A program made the position numbers and the translations under genes. 24,588 nt of DNA from a virus. The notes under the pieces were generated by a model that saw only the letters and a list, made by a program, of their open reading frames with translations, did no database searches and was not told the origin of the DNA. Below are positions 4,848-16,780 of the stretch, piece by piece; within the stretch, counting starts at the first letter, position 1, and each line of letters opens with the position of its first letter. The stretch is from IMG/VR virus record IMGVR_UViG_3300042568_000290, positions 1 to 24,588 of that record, one strand, 5' to 3'.

Positions 4848-5068
4848 CCATGTGGGCTGAAATCGGGCTAGACCTGCGCAGGCACGGCTGGGGGCCGTCA
4901 AAGGTGGCCGCTCACTTGAACGTGCCTCGATCTACGGTGCGGCACTGGTTCAACGCTGGCGGTACGCCGCTGTATCCGGCCGGGGCGCAGCTAATCAGCC
5001 TGCACGCGCGGATTGTTTGCCACCAAAAAGACCCGAAGCCCGTATGGCAAGCCGCGAATTGTCTCTAG
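4832..5068 (+). CDS. Small helix-turn-helix DNA-binding protein
   Basis: This 78-residue protein contains a helix-turn-helix at about residues 20-42: GPSKVAAHLNVPRSTVRHWF, with the usual Ala-x-x-Leu, Val and Trp positions of a homeodomain-like/Xre-type HTH. ATG 4832 has GGGGG at 4821-4825 six bases upstream; ATG 4850 is an alternative start that leaves the HTH intact. It overlaps the end of the large terminase gene and is the last gene before the portal. Its TAG stop (5066-5068) contains the first bases of the 15-bp repeat found again before the scaffold and ejection genes. It may be a regulator or a packaging accessory protein; neither is proven. Confidence 0.75.
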   Translation: MDGSLTMWAEIGLDLRRHGWGPSKVAAHLNVPRSTVRHWFNAGGTPLYPAGAQLISLHARIVCHQKDPKPVWQAANCL

Positions 5069-5115: not shown

Positions 5116-7428
5116 ATGATTGAATACACCGGTCGCCCGCAAGGCGTCAAAGACGCCGATATCGTTGCCGAGGCGCGTAAGCGCTATCGCGTGGCGTCTG
5201 ACGCCGCCTCCCGAAACCGCGAGAGCTTCCGCGAGGCGATGCGGTTTGCCGCTGGGAATCAATGGGATGACCGGCTAAAGCAAGCCCGCGAGTCGCAAAA
5301 CCGGCCTTGTCTGACGATGGACAGGCTTGGCACGCACATCAACCAGATTGTTAACGATCAGCGGCAGAGTAAGCCCGCGATCAAATGCAACCCCGTAGAC
5401 GATAAGGCCGACGTTAAGACCGCCGAGATTCTGAATGGGGTCATTCGGAACATCGAGCATTTGAGCAATGCGCCGATGGTCTACGAGACGGCCAGCTTCT
5501 CTCAGGTTGCCGCAGGTATGGGCGTTTGGCGGGTGCTGACCGAGTACGCCGATGAAAACGCATTCGAGCAAGACATCCGGCTAAAGCGCATCCTCGACCC
5601 GATCTCCGTTACGTTTGATCCGAACGCCCGCGAGATGGACGCCTCGGACGCCATGTACGCTTTCGTCGAGGATTCCGTAGACCGCGAGACGTTCAAGGAA
5701 CTGTACCCGGACATTAATCCTGACGATTGGGCGGGCCAGTCTGACGATTTGGGCTGGTGGAATCCTGACAGTGTTCGTTGCGCCGAGTATTACCGCGTAA
5801 TCATGCGCAAGACGCGCCTGTTCCTGCTGGCCGATGGGTCGGTGATGGATGAGCAGGAATTTGCCAAGTCTGAGCGCAACCCGGCAGAAGTGATTGACCA
5901 GCGACCCAGCAAGCGGCGCGAAGTGCAATGGTTCAAGATTGCCGGGGCTTCCGTTGCCGATTCCAGAGTCTGGCCGGGGCGGTGGATTCCGCTGGTGCGG
6001 ATTGTCGGAAATGAGACCGTTGTCGATGGGAAGATTCTTTACACCGGCCTGACGCAACGCGCATACGATGCGCAGCGCATGTATAACTACCAGGTCTCGA
6101 CAATGGTCGAGATGCTGAGTCTGCAAAAGACGGCACCGTACATCGGCGCAAAGGGTCAATTCAAGGGCGTGGAGCAACGTTGGGCGCGTGCCAATGCCAC
6201 AAACCCGGCCTATCTGGAATACGAACCCGTCGAGCTAAACGGGCAATTCCTGCCCGCCCCGCAGCGGCAACCTGCGCCCCAGGTGCCGACCGGCAACGTT
6301 CAGGCGATGCAAGCGGCCGCGCAAGATTTGCAATGGATCACCGGTCAGCACGCAGCGAACTTCGGTGCCGCATCGAACGAGACCAGCGGCCGCGCCATTA
6401 TGGCCCGCCAGCGCGAAGGCGACACGGCGACCTATCACTATCTGGACAACCTGAGTCGCGGCATTTTGCATACGGGCCGCATTCTGGTTGACCTGATTCC
6501 GCGCATCTATGACACAAAGCGCGTTTTGAGGGTCTTGGGCGATGATGAATCGCCGTCCGTGGTCATGCACGACCCCGAGCAGCCCGAAGCTGTGCGCAAG
6601 GTGCAGGACGAAACCGGCGCGATCAAGAAGATTTACAATCTGAACGTGGGCCGCTATGACGTTGCGGTCTCCGTCGGCCCGTCTTTCGGTACGCTCCGCG
6701 CCGAGTCTACGGAAGCCATGACGCAGCTTCTACAGGGCAATCCGAACCTGTGGACGGTTATCGGTGACTTGTACGTTCGCGGTCAGAACTGGCCGAACGC
6801 GCAAGCTATTGCGGATCGACTGGCCAAGACCGTGCCGCCTGAGATCAAAGGCGCGGAAGGCGAGGAAAACGACCCCGAAGCGATGATGGGTCAAATGCAA
6901 GCGGCGATGCAGCAACTTGAAGGCGCGTTGCAGGAACGCGAACAGGCATTGCAGCAAGCGGCGCAGATCGTCCAGCAGCTTGAGGGCCAACTGCAAGACG
7001 CTCAAGTCAAGCAACAGACCGAGCAAGCGCAGACGATGGACAAGACAAACGCCGAGATCATCAAGGCCGAAACCGAGCGGTACAAGGCGGACGCAAGCAT
7101 TGAAGTCGCTCGCATCGAGGCCGAAGTGGCGAAGGCTCAGGCATTGCGTGAGCAGACCGGCGCGGATATTGAGACGGTCAAAAAGTTGATGGCAACGCTG
7201 GCCGACCGGATGAATGTCGATATGCCCGAGCTTGGAAGCGAAGACGCAGGCCCGGAACCCGAAGAAATCATGCTCGCGCAGCTTCTGGAGCAGCAGCAAG
7301 GAATGCAAGACGCGATTGCACAACTTGCGACTGCGGTGCAAAGCAAACCGCCGATTGCGGTCGAGATCATGCGCGGCCCGGATGGACGCGCACAACAATT
7401 TGTGATGAGGCCGACAAATGGCGGTTAA
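5116..7428 (+). CDS. Portal protein, P22-like
   Basis: The 770-residue protein is close in length to P22 gp1 (725 aa). The N-terminal part (RYRVASDAASRNRESFREAM, GNQWDD, RPCLTMDRLGTHINQIVND) and MGVWRVLTEY are typical of P22-like portals. The body ends in a long coiled coil at about residues 590-700, rich in Gln, Glu and Ala, matching the helical barrel that extends into the P22 capsid. As a dodecamer it would form the DNA entry vertex, bind the terminase and later the gp4-like protein. ATG 5116 is the first start after an in-frame TAA at 5107, and GGGG touches it directly, an unusually tight spacing for a ribosome binding site. The last 11 bases overlap the next gene. Confidence 0.95.
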   Translation: MIEYTGRPQGVKDADIVAEARKRYRVASDAASRNRESFREAMRFAAGNQWDDRLKQARESQNRPCLTMDRLGTHINQIVNDQRQSKPAIKCNPVDDKADVKTAEILNGVIRNIEHLSNAPMVYETASFSQVAAGMGVWRVLTEYADENAFEQDIRLKRILDPISVTFDPNAREMDASDAMYAFVEDSVDRETFKELYPDINPDDWAGQSDDLGWWNPDSVRCAEYYRVIMRKTRLFLLADGSVMDEQEFAKSERNPAEVIDQRPSKRREVQWFKIAGASVADSRVWPGRWIPLVRIVGNETVVDGKILYTGLTQRAYDAQRMYNYQVSTMVEMLSLQKTAPYIGAKGQFKGVEQRWARANATNPAYLEYEPVELNGQFLPAPQRQPAPQVPTGNVQAMQAAAQDLQWITGQHAANFGAASNETSGRAIMARQREGDTATYHYLDNLSRGILHTGRILVDLIPRIYDTKRVLRVLGDDESPSVVMHDPEQPEAVRKVQDETGAIKKIYNLNVGRYDVAVSVGPSFGTLRAESTEAMTQLLQGNPNLWTVIGDLYVRGQNWPNAQAIADRLAKTVPPEIKGAEGEENDPEAMMGQMQAAMQQLEGALQEREQALQQAAQIVQQLEGQLQDAQVKQQTEQAQTMDKTNAEIIKAETERYKADASIEVARIEAEVAKAQALREQTGADIETVKKLMATLADRMNVDMPELGSEDAGPEPEEIMLAQLLEQQQGMQDAIAQLATAVQSKPPIAVEIMRGPDGRAQQFVMRPTNGG

Positions 7429-7798
7429 CTATCGAACCTCTCTCAAGACCACGCGCATGACGGCGGTGCGCGATGACATTGACAGCGGAACCGGCGCGGG
7501 CACGTTGGAAATCTGTACTGCGGCTTACGCCTCGGTGCTGGTGACGTTCACCTGTAACGACCCGTGCGGCACGGTGAGCAGCGATGTTCTATCGTTTTCC
7601 GGCCTGACCAAGACTGCGACCGCTGGCAACACCGGCACTGCCGCCATTGCGCGGTTCAAGAATTCATCGGGCACGGACATTGTGACCGGCTTGACGGTCG
7701 GCACCTCTGGAACTGACATCATCATCAGCCCGTCAACGACGATCACCTCGGGTCAGTCGGTTGACTGGACTGCTGGCACCATCACGCACAGCGCATAA
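7418..7798 (+). CDS. Putative virion structural protein, 126 aa
   Basis: This is a Thr/Ser/Gly/Ala-rich protein of predicted beta structure (VGTSGTDIIISPSTTITSGQ), with no signal peptide. It overlaps the portal gene end by 11 bases and is followed directly by another virion-type protein. Related small proteins in other phages are annotated only as structural or hypothetical. It could be a head decoration protein or a head fibre partner of the next gene. P22 has no gene at this position. Confidence 0.72.
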   Translation: MAVNYRTSLKTTRMTAVRDDIDSGTGAGTLEICTAAYASVLVTFTCNDPCGTVSSDVLSFSGLTKTATAGNTGTAAIARFKNSSGTDIVTGLTVGTSGTDIIISPSTTITSGQSVDWTAGTITHSA

Positions 7799-7806
7799 GG
7801 CACGGC

Positions 7807-9318
7807 ATGTCTGATAACGTCGTTCTCCCTGGCACTGGCGAATCGGTCGCCACTGATGACATTAGTGGTATTCAGTACCAGCGCATCAAGGTTTCCGATG
7901 GGCTGGCCGAATCGACCACGCACATGCGCGTTCGTGCGGATAACCCGCTGACGACCGATGGCGGCGCGGTTGTCCGGCAATCGCCGTGTGATATCTGGTC
8001 TGTTGGCTTTGCCGCGTCCGGGTCGAGCCTGCTTGCGCAAGAGCTTACGCAGCGCCGCCTTGGCACTGGCATGGGCGTCACGCAGGGGTCGAGCAACCTG
8101 CTAGTGACTACTGGAACGACTGCGAATAGCGAATTCCTCGCGCGTTCTACACAGTCGTTTCGTGGTGCGTTTACGGCACGGGCCAAGACCATCCTTTCGC
8201 AGCGGATTGCGAACCAGAACTTCGTCGCGATGCTGGCCGACCTGATTGGCGAGGGCCTGAGTTGCACGATCAACTCGGCCACCAGTATCACGGTCACCAA
8301 GACCGCGCACGGATTTACTGCCGCTAACGTCGGCCAGTTCATGTTTGTGGGTGCGATCTCCGGGGCCAACGGTGTCCCCGGCCGCTATGCCATCGCCAGC
8401 ATCCCGAGTGTTGACACGATCAACTTTACCGTGGCGGGCTGGCCCGCATCTGGTAGCTGCACGCTTGATCTGTTCGGCTGGAACTACATCCGCACCGCGT
8501 ACAGCGGCACGACCGCGACCAACGCCTCGGTAGACGCGCAGCGGCGGGGCTGGAACTCGGGTGACACCACCGCGACGATCAACACGACCGCATCGCCTGG
8601 CCACGTCATGCAGGTCTACGCGGACGGCCGAAATATCAACTGGTCGGACGCGCTGGTCGCATCAGGCACCGCGCCGACCGTCACCACGCGCGCGAGCCGG
8701 ATCGAGAACATCCCCGACGACGACGTTGAGTTGTATTTCTACTTGTGGAGCTTCAACGGCACGACCGCACCTGCCAGCACGACGACCTGGACTGTGGGCT
8801 TTGTCTCGGTCGAGGATATTGTCAACGTGCCGACCTACATCGCTGGCGTGCGACCGCTCGGTGCACAGGCGCCGCTGCCTGTGTCCGGTCAAGGTACGTT
8901 TACGGTCACCTTCACGCAGCCCGCGCTGGTGGCTGGCACGGCCGCCATCGGCGACGTGGGCATCCAATACCGCGCCAACGCGACCGGAGCGGCCAGCGGT
9001 ACGCACCTTGTCAGCGCAGCCACAACGAATGCGACGATTGTCAAAGGGTCTCCCGGCCGCGTGGTCGGTTGGAGCTTTGGAAACACAAACGCGGCGTGGC
9101 GGTACGTCAAGTTGCACAACCAGACCACAACCCCCGCGGCGGGCACTGGCGTTGTGCGGACGATTGCGATTCCGCCCAACGGGGTCAACACGTTCAAGAT
9201 CGAAGGCGGCATTGCGTTTGCGACGGGTATCGGGCTGACCACGGTCACGGGCGCGGCCGATGCGGACACTGCCGCTGTCGGCCTGAACGACATCGTCGGC
9301 GATCTGTTTTTCTCATAA
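7807..9318 (+). CDS. Putative virion structural protein, 503 aa
   Basis: The protein is beta-rich with many Thr, Ser, Gly and Ala residues. The N-terminal 150 residues look like an anchoring region. A middle section (TKTAHGFTAANVGQFMFVGA) resembles surface-exposed beta modules of virion proteins. The last 100 residues contain RYVKLHNQTTTPAAGTGVV and GAADADTAAVGLNDI, close to a domain repeated across many phage structural proteins. It may form a capsid appendage or decoration. Start ATG 7807 follows a weak AAGGC site. It is part of a four-gene insert between portal and scaffold. Exact location in the virion is unknown. Confidence 0.78.
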   Translation: MSDNVVLPGTGESVATDDISGIQYQRIKVSDGLAESTTHMRVRADNPLTTDGGAVVRQSPCDIWSVGFAASGSSLLAQELTQRRLGTGMGVTQGSSNLLVTTGTTANSEFLARSTQSFRGAFTARAKTILSQRIANQNFVAMLADLIGEGLSCTINSATSITVTKTAHGFTAANVGQFMFVGAISGANGVPGRYAIASIPSVDTINFTVAGWPASGSCTLDLFGWNYIRTAYSGTTATNASVDAQRRGWNSGDTTATINTTASPGHVMQVYADGRNINWSDALVASGTAPTVTTRASRIENIPDDDVELYFYLWSFNGTTAPASTTTWTVGFVSVEDIVNVPTYIAGVRPLGAQAPLPVSGQGTFTVTFTQPALVAGTAAIGDVGIQYRANATGAASGTHLVSAATTNATIVKGSPGRVVGWSFGNTNAAWRYVKLHNQTTTPAAGTGVVRTIAIPPNGVNTFKIEGGIAFATGIGLTTVTGAADADTAAVGLNDIVGDLFFS

Positions 9319-9327
9319 GGTGCAGCA

Positions 9328-9492
9328 ATGACAGTCAATCAGCTTATCCAGATGGCGCAGCGCCGCATTGCGCACCTTGGCGAGCAGCGGATTAATGCCG
9401 AGAGAGTTGGCGACGTTGACGCCGTGACGCGCATCGACACCGATCTGGCCGAAACGCAGGCAACGCTGGCGCAACTGAACACGCTGGTGTAG
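9328..9492 (+). CDS. Small conserved phage protein, 54 aa
   Basis: The ORF begins at ATG 9328 and encodes 54 residues, opening MTVNQLIQMAQRRIAHLGEQ and ending with LAETQATLAQLNTLV. It is a predicted all-helical, probably coiled-coil protein. Very similar small ORFs accompany structural genes in other phages, always unassigned. Its neighbours are two virion-type proteins. No clear Shine-Dalgarno is present, so it may be translated by coupling with the upstream gene, whose stop is 9 bases before. Confidence 0.68.
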   Translation: MTVNQLIQMAQRRIAHLGEQRINAERVGDVDAVTRIDTDLAETQATLAQLNTLV

Positions 9493-9496
9493 TCCC

Positions 9497-10081
9497 ATGC
9501 TGCTGCTGCTGTTTAATCAGCCTGCAAGCGGCAACCCGACTGCTTCACTAGGGGCGACGGAGGGCGCAGATACCGCCGCGTTTACGGTTCGCAACCGTGC
9601 GCGGGTAACTCTAGGTGCAACTGAATCGCCCGACGTTGCCGCGTTTGCGACAAGCGTTGTCAGTGCTACCCCGGCTGTTTCTCTGACCGCCACCGAAGGG
9701 TCGGACGTTGCAGCGTTTGCCGTGCGCGGGCCTGCCCTTGCGCCTACAGGCGGCGGCGCTGGTGACTACTTCACCAATGTTCCGAACTTCGCCCGCCGAT
9801 GGGTGGATATCCGCGAGGAGTTGGAGAAAAAGCCCACGCCGGCAGTGGTTCGAGAAGCGGCACGGTCAATCGTCCAGGCGCAGCCGGATATTGAGCCTGC
9901 CGCACTTCAATCGCTGGTTGACGAGCAACTACGGGCATATGACCTGCTTGCCTCGCTGTTAGCCATTGCGCAAGAAGAAGCGCGGCTAGAGCTACAGCGC
10001 ATTGAAGCGCAGCGGATGCTGGAACAGGACGAAGAAGAAGTGCAGCAGGCAATCCGGCTTTTCGTTGAGTATCTGCAATAG
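9497..10081 (+). CDS. Repeat-containing structural protein with C-terminal coiled coil, 194 aa
   Basis: The N-terminal half carries three copies of a motif of the form L-x-A-T-E-x-x-D-x-A-A-F (LGATEGADTAAF, LGATESPDVAAF, LTATEGSDVAAF), about 27-43 residues apart. Similar ATE..D.AAF repeats are seen beside structural genes in many phages. The C-terminal half (from about residue 105) is helical and charged (IAQEEARLELQRIEAQRML). It opens with MLLLLFNQ, which is hydrophobic but not a convincing signal peptide. No clear ribosome binding site is seen. The TAG stop lies inside the second 15-bp repeat. Role unknown; probably a virion component. Confidence 0.75.
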   Translation: MLLLLFNQPASGNPTASLGATEGADTAAFTVRNRARVTLGATESPDVAAFATSVVSATPAVSLTATEGSDVAAFAVRGPALAPTGGGAGDYFTNVPNFARRWVDIREELEKKPTPAVVREAARSIVQAQPDIEPAALQSLVDEQLRAYDLLASLLAIAQEEARLELQRIEAQRMLEQDEEEVQQAIRLFVEYLQ

Positions 10082-10094: not shown

Positions 10095-10152
10095 ACCGCT
10101 GCCGCGCGTTTCCGTCTACTTTCGGCGCATCTCATTCATGCCTGAAGGCAAA

Positions 10153-10986
10153 ATGACGAACGACCTTAGCGTGCCCTCGCAGGGGAACGAAGCGGAGTCG
10201 CTACCCGCACCTGAAGCCGAACAGGTTAAAACGGCAGGCCAAGAGCAGGCCAGCGACGAACATCAGACCGAAGAGCAGGGCGTCGAAGACGCGGAGCCGC
10301 GTGACGATGGGAAGCGCAAGCGTGGTGGATTAGGCGAGCGTGCGCTGGAGTATCGGAATCAAGCCCGAGACTTGGCACGCGTCAATGAGCGGCTGCTAAA
10401 CCTGATGGAGCGAACCCTAGCGGGCGATGCGCCGAAGGTGGAAAAGCCATCAGGCCCGCCGCAGCGCGAGAACTTCGACAGCTACGAAGCCTATCTGGAG
10501 GCGAAAGCCGATTACCAGGTGGCCGCAAAGCTTCAAGAAGTTGAAGTGCGAGCGGAACGGGCACGCCAAGAGGCATCGATTCGTGAGCGTGAGGAGTCGT
10601 GGATCAACCGGCAGAAGCAGGCCGCGAAGAAATACGATGACTTTGCCGAAGTAACCATGTCGGACGATCTGACGATCACTCCGATTATGGCGGAAGCAAT
10701 CAAGGACTCCGATATGGGGCCGGACGTTGCTTACTACCTCGGCAAGAATCCCGATCTCGCGGAGAAGATCGCCCGCATGAATCCCGCCGCTCAAGTGCGC
10801 GAACTCGGCAAGATCGAGGCGCGTTTGGAATCGAACAAAGAGCCGGTCAAGCGCCCCAGCAAAGCGCCCGCACCGATTGAGCCTATCGGCGGTGGCAAGG
10901 CATCTTCGGATGATCTTGGCACCATGTCACAGGCTCAATACGAGGCGATGCGTAAGAAGCAGGGCGCATGGTGGGCTGGACGTTAA
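10153..10986 (+). CDS. Scaffolding protein, P22-like
   Basis: The protein has 277 residues from ATG 10153. That start is preferred because GAAGG stands seven bases upstream, while ATG 10138, five codons earlier, has no such site. The N-terminus is acidic and disordered (many Glu/Gln), the centre is a long charged helix (about residues 90-160), and the C-terminus is basic with KEPVKRPSKAPAP and a final helical QAQYEAMRKKQGAWWAGR. Acidic, helical and basic-ended is the layout of P22 gp8 (303 aa), whose C-terminal helix-turn-helix binds coat. It would guide coat assembly and leave the procapsid before packaging. It lies directly before the coat gene, as in P22. Confidence 0.88.
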   Translation: MTNDLSVPSQGNEAESLPAPEAEQVKTAGQEQASDEHQTEEQGVEDAEPRDDGKRKRGGLGERALEYRNQARDLARVNERLLNLMERTLAGDAPKVEKPSGPPQRENFDSYEAYLEAKADYQVAAKLQEVEVRAERARQEASIREREESWINRQKQAAKKYDDFAEVTMSDDLTITPIMAEAIKDSDMGPDVAYYLGKNPDLAEKIARMNPAAQVRELGKIEARLESNKEPVKRPSKAPAPIEPIGGGKASSDDLGTMSQAQYEAMRKKQGAWWAGR

Positions 10987-11007: not shown

Positions 11008-12231
11008 ATGTCGAACACCCTCGCAACTACCTCACTGGTCGCCAAGGAATGCTTGGCGATCCTCAAAAACATGCTGACCTTTTCCAAGGGCGTCAACCGC
11101 TCGTGGCAGAGTGAGTACGGCTCCAACATGGCGCGTGGTTATGCCACCGGCCAGACCATCAACATCAAGCGCCCGCCGCGCTACACCTACCGTTCGGGCC
11201 GCGTCGCCAGCCCGCAAGCGACCGTTTTCAACACGGTTCCGCTGACGCTGAATCAGGGCGGTTGCGATATCAACTTCCCGCTGATTGAGCGTTCGGTCAG
11301 CATCTCGAACCCCGATCTGCAAAAGGCGCTGCAAGCCGCTGTTGCCACCGTGGCGAACGAAATCGACCGCCAAGGTCTGGCGCTGGCGCGTACCGCCGTT
11401 GCCAATCAGGTCAGCGTCAACACGACCACGATGGTTCAGCCTTCGACGCAAGCGGAGGCTCTGGCCCTTGCCACGCAATCCGGTCGCATTCTGGATGACA
11501 ATGCTGCCCCGCGTGACGGTCGCCGTAATCTGGTGCTGTCCTCGGGTCTCAATGCCTCGATGGTTCAGGGTCTTGCGGGTCTGTTCAACAACGCCTCGAC
11601 CATCGGCAAGCAGTACGGCGTAGGCATGATGGTGGACTCGCTGGGCTACAACGTCGGCATGGATCAGAACGTCGCCCGTCACGCAAACGGTGCCGCCGTG
11701 GCATCGAACATCTCGGGCGCTGGTCAGACCGGCGCGACGATGACTGTCGCCGCGACGACCGGCGGCACGCTGACGGCTGGCACGGTCATTACCCTGCCGG
11801 GTGTGTTCGATGTCAACCCGCAGACCCGCGCCTCTACCGGCCGACTGAAGCAATTCGTGGTAACTGCCGACGCTCTCGTCGGTGCGACCTCCATTGCTAT
11901 CAGCCCCGCTGTGACCCCGACCGGCGCATTCCAGAACTGCACCGCCTCGCCCACTAACGGCTCGCCGTTCGTGATCGTTGGCAACGCATCGGTCAGCTAC
12001 GATACCTCGGTCGCTTTCCATGAGGATGCCTTCACGCTGGCGATGGTTCCGATGTTTGTGCCGCAGGATCAGAACGCCAAGGTCTCGCAGGAGTCGGATC
12101 AAGGCTTCACGGTCAAGGTGACGGAGTACTACGACGGTGCGAACGACGTGAGCAACATGCGTCTCGACGTGCTGTTCGGTTGGGCCGCGACCTACCCCGA
12201 GCTGGCCTGCCGGATCGGCACCACGGGCTAA
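11008..12231 (+). CDS. Major capsid (coat) protein, P22 gp5-like
   Basis: The protein has 407 residues, close to P22 gp5 (430). N-terminal features (SLVAKECLAILKNMLTFSKG, IKRPPRYTYRSGR) and VPLTLNQGGCDINFPLIERS are those of the P22 coat family, with an HK97-type fold. A Ser/Thr/Gly-rich stretch at about residues 230-320 could be the inserted I-domain region that P22-like coats carry. GCGGAG before ATG 11008 serves as ribosome binding site. The gene is followed by a strong terminator, as expected for the most abundant virion protein. Confidence 0.95.
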   Translation: MSNTLATTSLVAKECLAILKNMLTFSKGVNRSWQSEYGSNMARGYATGQTINIKRPPRYTYRSGRVASPQATVFNTVPLTLNQGGCDINFPLIERSVSISNPDLQKALQAAVATVANEIDRQGLALARTAVANQVSVNTTTMVQPSTQAEALALATQSGRILDDNAAPRDGRRNLVLSSGLNASMVQGLAGLFNNASTIGKQYGVGMMVDSLGYNVGMDQNVARHANGAAVASNISGAGQTGATMTVAATTGGTLTAGTVITLPGVFDVNPQTRASTGRLKQFVVTADALVGATSIAISPAVTPTGAFQNCTASPTNGSPFVIVGNASVSYDTSVAFHEDAFTLAMVPMFVPQDQNAKVSQESDQGFTVKVTEYYDGANDVSNMRLDVLFGWAATYPELACRIGTTG

Positions 12232-16646: not shown

Positions 16647-16780
16647 TGGAACTCAACGACAACGAACGCTTGATTCTTTCGCTTGCCCTTCAGGGGCAGA
16701 TCGTTGCGGCACAAATGCTGCTGCAAAAACTTAACCCGCAAGGCGATAAACCGCCCCAAGAGGACAAGCCTTTGTCATAG
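16646..16780 (+). CDS. Small protein, 44 aa
   Basis: The ATG is formed by the TAATG overlap with the fibre gene. It encodes MELNDNERLILSLALQGQ, then a helix with IVAAQMLLQKL and a proline-rich end (QGDKPPQEDKPLS). The QGDKPP part is encoded by the third copy of the 15-bp repeat. The stop TAG is at 16778-16780, 21 bases before the next gene. It looks real by its start coupling and composition but has no named family. Confidence 0.65.
   Translation: MELNDNERLILSLALQGQIVAAQMLLQKLNPQGDKPPQEDKPLS
16741..16755 (+). repeat. 15-bp element AGGCGATAAACCGCC, copy 3 (before first ejection gene)
   Basis: Identical over 15 bases to copies 1 and 2, but here it lies within the 44-aa gene rather than at a stop codon. 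It ends 46 bases before the ATG at 16802, comparable to the spacing of the other two copies. Confidence 0.7.

Follow-up and report, generated by a model that had tools for sequence, protein, structure and literature searches.

Evidence for an exchangeable cassette of a garland-type connector, a repeat protein and a predicted lectin-fold protein between the portal and scaffold genes of a P22-like virus

Introduction

Why do four extra genes lie between the portal and scaffold genes of a virus whose virion genes are otherwise arranged like those of P22? The question arises for a 24,588-bp virus record from IMG/VR, referred to as the window. It carries a P22-type block that runs from the terminase and portal genes through the four extra genes to scaffold, coat and a relative of head-closure proteins. 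The portal, scaffold and coat are of the P22 type and keep their order, which places the block among the P22-like virion gene blocks. The open reading frames (ORFs) of the four genes, which encode proteins of 126, 503, 54 and 194 amino acids (A126, B503, C54 and D194), were confirmed at the positions given in Table 1. All four proteins have relatives in other contigs, and the ORFs are therefore not chance ones. A first-pass annotation, made from the DNA alone, had proposed that they form a structural module that may encode a head decoration or a capsid-vertex appendage. We consider it rather likely that the stretch does not belong to the core machinery of the head but is an optional accessory cassette, open to exchange, for an additional appendage of the virion composed of connector beads, a repeat string and a lectin.

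Results

To place the four genes, we compared the window with related loci, most of which come from uncultured phages; gene calls in the scripted analyses were made with a crude ORF picker. The P22-like podoviruses Rhodoferax phage P26218, EBPR podovirus 1 and Pam1 lack the module and have the same order of portal, scaffold and coat genes as the window, but their annotated scaffold gene directly follows the portal gene. For ctfPj964, the record annotates a hypothetical gene on the reverse strand after the portal, whereas our ORF call gives a forward scaffold homolog directly at this place. Among more distant coat relatives (L097–L156), portal and scaffold-type genes were adjacent in 33 of the 40 loci that list both, with inserted ORFs in the other seven; scaffold-type genes were counted here as families SCAF or f25, the latter assigned by position. 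The module proposed by the first-pass annotation is upheld to the extent that extra structural-looking genes, namely A126 (phrog_3758, garland family) and B503 (predicted lectin-like fold), are absent from the named relatives. Nor is the gene order standard in all close relatives, as different genes occupy the slot there. Relatives that share at least 94% identity with the window in portal or coat differ precisely between portal and scaffold. The content A126-B503-C54-D194 is found in the window, L001 and L002, and also in L003, where D has four repeats, and in L036, where it has two. L012 has B503-C54-D128 and no A126, L085 has A126-70-282-269-D248, and L083 (coat 95%) has A126-57-99-139-268-D246. 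The position between portal and scaffold is a hypervariable slot.

The content of this slot is not confined to one phage lineage. In L005 and L008, B503 is 84–86% identical to that of the window, yet the portal is only 42% and the coat only 31–32% identical. The portals beside B503 relatives belong to phrog_156 (window), phrog_12082, 1216, 21 and 12, the last four families each typed on one member. A second lineage (L167–L175), whose portal was grouped by blastp with the family typed phrog_12082 on L057, carries A126 at 90–94% identity; L169–L175 also have B503, and D as well in those contigs that extend far enough. The cassette of L167 is of the L085 type, and L168 has a 139-aa protein (66%) and the D tip (58%) in common with L083, but not the 268/275-aa proteins (25%). 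The second-lineage genes after D have no similarity to the window scaffold and coat (20–26%). Between the window and L170/L172, A126 is 90% and B503 73–74% identical, with the portal and the genes after D at random level (20–23%). The DNA of the window and L036 is 72–75% similar to that of L169–L174 over 1,466–2,163 bp, from the A126 start codon onwards, and the similarity between L036 and L172 is continuous from A126 into D. The last cross-lineage DNA similarity lies in the D repeat region (window 9553–9705), with none further at E 1e-5. These computations show that phages whose portal is unrelated to that of the window have this cassette in the equivalent position, and they show both the exchange between lineages and its limits.

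Wider searches gave the following results. Of two scans of genome contigs, the first confirmed no locus and the second, which was profile-based, yielded nine loci in metagenome-assembled genomes. Named phages gave no tblastn match to D194 or C54, and none was obtained with a repeat protein as query either, where the low-complexity filter may mask such sequence. Contig IMGVR_UViG_3300044729_001736 (L163, L165; 33,807 bases) carries A126 near both ends, in copies 100% and 98% identical to that of the window; either the genome is circular and its ends overlap imperfectly, or two variants were assembled together.

By sequence and predicted fold, A126 is a member of the garland connector family of the Agrobacterium phages 7-7-1 and Milano. 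It matches phrog_3758, "virion structural protein", with an E value of 6.6e-15, and a profile of 37 A126 sequences matches PDB entry 9rkv_A (E 2.8e-8). The A126 model (pLDDT 93.1) aligned with 9rkv_A with a Z score of 11.0 over 120 residues (rmsd 2.7). Within a set of 12 proteins, Milano gp125 and gp127 as well as 7-7-1_103 and _105 matched the A126 profile with E values of 3e-14 to 5e-9. We took 9rkv_A as a garland chain because its sequence agrees with 7-7-1_000103, a relative of Milano gp125. The entry was deposited as "tail fibers", and passages of the 7-7-1 paper describe homodimeric garland proteins around the fibres (PMC12796354). Lower Z scores were obtained for chain K of the Bas63 connector (9mt4_K, 9.5) and of the Sf14 neck whiskers (9c39_K, 9.4), with about 100 aligned residues each. 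Both were compared by chain label and resemble A126 in fold, but have no detectable sequence relation to it (8% in the alignment). The garland surrounds the tail fibres at the baseplate of a myovirus, whereas A126 is encoded in a podovirus-type head block beside a predicted lectin-fold cargo.

This putative cargo is B503. The model of its residues 58–340 is predicted to have the jelly-roll fold of concanavalin-A-like lectins and glucanases. The best match, to lichenase 3d6e_A, covered 173 aligned residues (rmsd 3.0); Z scores of 14.4 and 14.1 were obtained for two phage binding domains, 5ly8 (J-1 evolved Dit CBM2) and 9n6a (TM4 gp23 receptor-binding domain). These lectin, glucanase and phage-domain matches share the fold but are only about 10% identical to B503. 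An active GH16 glucanase was rejected, as the catalytic ExDxxE-type pattern is absent. PDB sequence searches with B503 and D194 gave nothing convincing. Relatives have at least two diverged types of the B503 C-terminal domain, about 30–42% or 57–98% identical to that of the window, and even the window and its close relative L036 differ in type. The Caulobacter phages S2B and KSC and L071–L079 have this domain alone, with no other part of B503.

D194 was analyzed in a matrix of 10 loci from two lineages and three cassettes, in which random pairs had a median of 22% and a 95% value of 30%. The last 80 residues of D track the lineage (61–100% within, 14–19% between), as do the portal and the gene after D, with the exception of L167, whose gene after D differs from its own lineage (16–17%). 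The first 12 residues track the cassette instead (58–100% vs 8–42%), and so does the cargo. A126 is 86–100% identical in the nine matrix loci that carry it. D is split in this matrix into a cassette-tracking tip and a lineage-tracking tail. A tip pattern (MLLLLFNQ-like) was present in 33 of 131 non-redundant ORFs at most three genes downstream of B503, compared with 3 of 2,645 elsewhere. Like the ExxD repeat pattern and the looser connector classes used below, it was written after looking at the sequences. By its pattern, the ExxD repeat count ranges from 0 (L012) to 7–8. From its sequence, D194 looks like a three-part adapter with a tip that follows the cassette, repeats that go with the connector gene and a tail that follows the lineage.

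Published structures contain chains that thread connector dimers. The Milano authors liken their garland proteins to T4 gp8 and A511 gp105, and in A511 an extended chain crosses the connector dimers like beads on a string (PMC10811340). In the neck of Sf14, one gp30 chain is described to thread both whiskers (PMC11821841); the whisker products gp30 and gp31 are numbered right after the portal gp29. The "beads-on-a-string" passages on E217 were dropped as a parallel, as those concern other proteins (PMC10329688). Because of the chains in A511 and Sf14, we tested A126-type genes for repeat proteins nearby. The sample comprised 39 non-redundant genes in 35 loci, four of which have two, each with at least 3 kb downstream; controls were genes of 90–230 aa from 152 loci without a profile-detected connector, which is not an unbiased sample. 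A tandem-repeat protein, as judged by a shuffle test, was encoded at most 4.5 kb downstream of 38 of the 39 A126-type genes (34 of the 35 loci) and of 56 of the 490 controls (Fisher 6.7e-31). The ExxD pattern was found near 34 of the 39 and 8 of the 490, respectively (Fisher 1.4e-40). Relatedness was uncorrected, and the P values are therefore descriptive only.

Two other small connector families (f14 and phrog_644 type), related to each other (hhalign 98.6), had a repeat protein nearby for 12 of 14 and 5 of 7 genes; their profiles were built partly from loci already known to have repeats, and the repeat protein of L211 enters the counts under two connector families. The second of them matches "Tail wing arm, gp31" (9d93_Ra, E 3.4e-4). 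The satellite phage MiniFlayer, which attaches to the neck of its helper, encodes a protein related to the phrog_644-type connector at OQ357865.1 5252–5608 (41.9%, E 1e-10). For 12 loci in named phages, selected through connector homology, a repeat protein was encoded among at most five next genes in 10, corresponding to 10 of 49 next genes and 1 of 101 other genes. Four of these loci (L265, L266, L269, L270) had been seen beforehand; six of the remaining eight had a repeat protein, and three of these six proteins are longer than 650 aa, where chance is likelier. For Pam1, the cement protein was rejected as the connector; the connector homolog is another gene, Pam1_09.

Connector and repeats also tend to be absent together. 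Among non-redundant B503 loci with a recognizable D, repeats were detected in all 22 D proteins with a profile-detected connector at most 1.5 kb upstream and in 4 of the 13 without one (P 1.0e-5). With a looser connector class the numbers were 24 of 24 and 2 of 11; this table leaves out loci without a recognized D or upstream gene, L059–L062, L160 and redundant D proteins, and the L032 protein taken as D was assigned manually. The clearest case is L012, which has a portal 98% identical to that of the window with B503 directly after it and a D that keeps tip and tail but lacks repeats (p 0.49, 0.55). The two looser-class exceptions with repeats and no recognized connector, L038 and L259, encode a small protein family containing LHTADPGEAG upstream of B503 (L038 2802–3245, L259 8082–8516), possibly another connector family.

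As with A126 and D194, repeat proteins are encoded close to the garland genes of Milano and 7-7-1. The Milano authors regard the garland string as unclear and name gp126 as their candidate (PMC10811340). Milano gp126 had no significant repeats (p 0.93). Significant repeats (0 of 300 shuffles) were found in gp002 and gp003, which adjoin the garland genes across the record ends. In phage 7-7-1, the repeats of 7-7-1_109 were significant and those of 7-7-1_108 borderline (p 0.02). By their repeats and positions, Milano gp002 and gp003 and 7-7-1_109 are candidates for garland strings. In the main text of the Milano paper, gp1, gp2, gp3, gp002 and gp003 occur nowhere as whole words.

A 16-base element, GGCGATAAACCGCCAC, lies at 5068 and 10081, with a third copy carrying one mismatch at 16742. 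The copies precede the portal gene, the scaffold gene and, for the mismatched copy, a 253-aa gene. The first-pass annotation had let the module end at copy 2 of the element, taken there as 15 bp, and placed copy 1 before the portal. Copy 2 indeed overlaps the D194 stop codon and copy 1 stands before the portal; the element does not bound the module, however, because copy 1 lies ahead of the portal and the cross-lineage DNA similarity is bounded by the A126 start and the D194 repeats. The recurrence at 16742 is a further reason for rejecting it as a border. A short hairpin can form in GGCGATAAACCGCCAC; the GGCGATAAATCGCCAC of L083/L085 would have a longer stem. It is perhaps a regulatory element.

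Table 1. Features of the window and repeat proteins near garland genes of named phages
Feature	Coordinates	Strand	Remarks
Portal gene (P22 type), left neighbour	5116..7428	+	Pfam P22_portal E 2.2e-172; 11-base overlap with A126 start
A126, connector ("bead"), garland family, 126 aa	7418..7798	+	phrog_3758; profile and model match to 9rkv_A
B503, putative cargo protein, whole gene, 503 aa	7807..9318	+	found at 79 loci of viral contigs; neighbouring portals from five PHROG families
B503 residues 58–340, predicted concanavalin-A-like lectin fold	7978..8826	+	VIA Z 15.7 to 3d6e_A
B503 residues 397–503, separate C-terminal beta domain	8995..9315	+	stands without rest of B503 in other phages
C54, short protein, 54 aa	9328..9492	+	swapped for other short proteins in relatives; no family match in library scans of window proteins
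D194, putative string/adapter protein, whole gene, 194 aa	9497..10081	+	
D194 tip, first 12 residues	9497..9532	+	tracks cassette
D194 repeats, three ExxD repeats of ~20 aa	9533..9727	+	number differs among relatives
D194 C-terminal region	9728..10078	+	last 80 residues track phage lineage
Scaffold gene, right neighbour	10138..10986	+	phrog_8865 E 2.7e-46; Pfam Phage-scaffold below cut-off
P22-type coat gene	11008–12231		after scaffold
Milano gp002 and gp003	L271 1527–2558 and 2552–3913		repeat proteins close to garland genes
7-7-1_109	L274 11313–12737		repeat protein close to garland genes

Discussion

The mechanism that we infer, with its physical contacts, sugar binding, functions and place in the virion, would be as follows. 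A126 would form small connector beads of the garland kind, and D194 would be an extended string, the ~20-aa repeats of which bind the beads. The N-terminal tip of D194 may bind or match the cargo, and its C-terminal tail may fasten the string to the phage's own virion. B503 would be the cargo, a lectin-fold protein probably binding sugars on a host or environmental surface, with C54 as an accessory. Exchange at the A126 start and within the D repeats would swap the cargo and keep the phage's own attachment tail. Judging from the known homes of the A126 fold, we favor the neck or tail over the head as the site of the appendage.

Several results weigh against this reading. The B503 model is of moderate quality (pLDDT 71.6, pTM 0.56), the A126 model matches T4 gp8 weakly (Z 5.1), and no relation between A126 and the other two connector families was detectable by profile. 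Connectors without a repeat protein by the test occur in L108, L054, L124, Pam1 (L275) and HTVC027P (L282); in L054, an f14-type connector stands away from B503 and D has no repeats. Repeats without a profile-detected connector were found in L032, L033, L038 and L259. The repeat test has false positives, since the garland protein 7-7-1_103 itself passed it with 0 of 300 shuffles. Finally, the Milano repeats in gp002 and gp003, 21–22 aa long, are of other types than the ExxD repeats of D194.

The joint inheritance of adjacent genes may by itself explain the association. Connector, lectin and repeat genes would then simply travel together as neighbours, with no binding of beads to repeats; all of these genes are neighbours in the studied loci, and related sequences inflate the counts. 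On this account it is hard to see why L012 lacks both connector and repeats but keeps tip and tail, why several unrelated connector-less cassettes have no repeats, and why the repeat type varies by connector family, and we regard co-inheritance alone as unlikely. The repeats could also serve mainly as recombination sites that aid cassette swaps, their number being neutral. The end of the cross-lineage DNA similarity in the repeat region and the wide range of repeat counts agree with this, but it leaves unexplained both the loss of repeats with the connector gene and the repeat types by connector family; we judge it quite improbable.

A capsid decoration or head-vertex fibre, sitting on the coat lattice or vertex and binding host or environmental glycans, would suit genes that lie inside the head block before the scaffold and a D tail that tracks the portal and scaffold lineage. 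In addition, the 7-7-1 paper reports capsid fibres with no protein assigned (PMC12796354). The solved structures closest to the A126 fold, however, come from tail-fibre/baseplate (9rkv_A) and neck/connector entries (9c39_K, 9mt4_K), and A126 and B503 recur beside unrelated portals and do not track the window's own virion genes, as seen in L170 and L172. We regard the head placement in the first-pass annotation as unlikely. No known head decoration protein was among the fold matches listed for A126 and B503, where other folds ranked first, but such a listing does not speak against one. That the proteins are no virion parts at all, but assembly aids or ejected internal proteins, is suggested by their position beside the scaffold gene; in view of the phrog_3758 label, the garland family and the predicted lectin fold, it is very improbable.

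The reading as an exchangeable appendage cassette can be extended, tentatively, to a general bead-and-string code, for which we see a reasonable but less than even chance. Each connector family would have a ~20-aa repeat type of its own as partner, carried by a neighbouring string protein; the count of repeats would fix the number of beads, and the string ends, a cargo tip and a virion tail, would make the cargo plug-compatible between unrelated virions. If this code is true, Milano gp002 or gp003 would be nominated as the Milano garland string, and the question of what strings garland beads would become testable. It would suggest what a class of repeat proteins without known function does in phages, and it would provide a sequence-level rule, with the adapter named, for the swapping of adhesion modules between unrelated virions.

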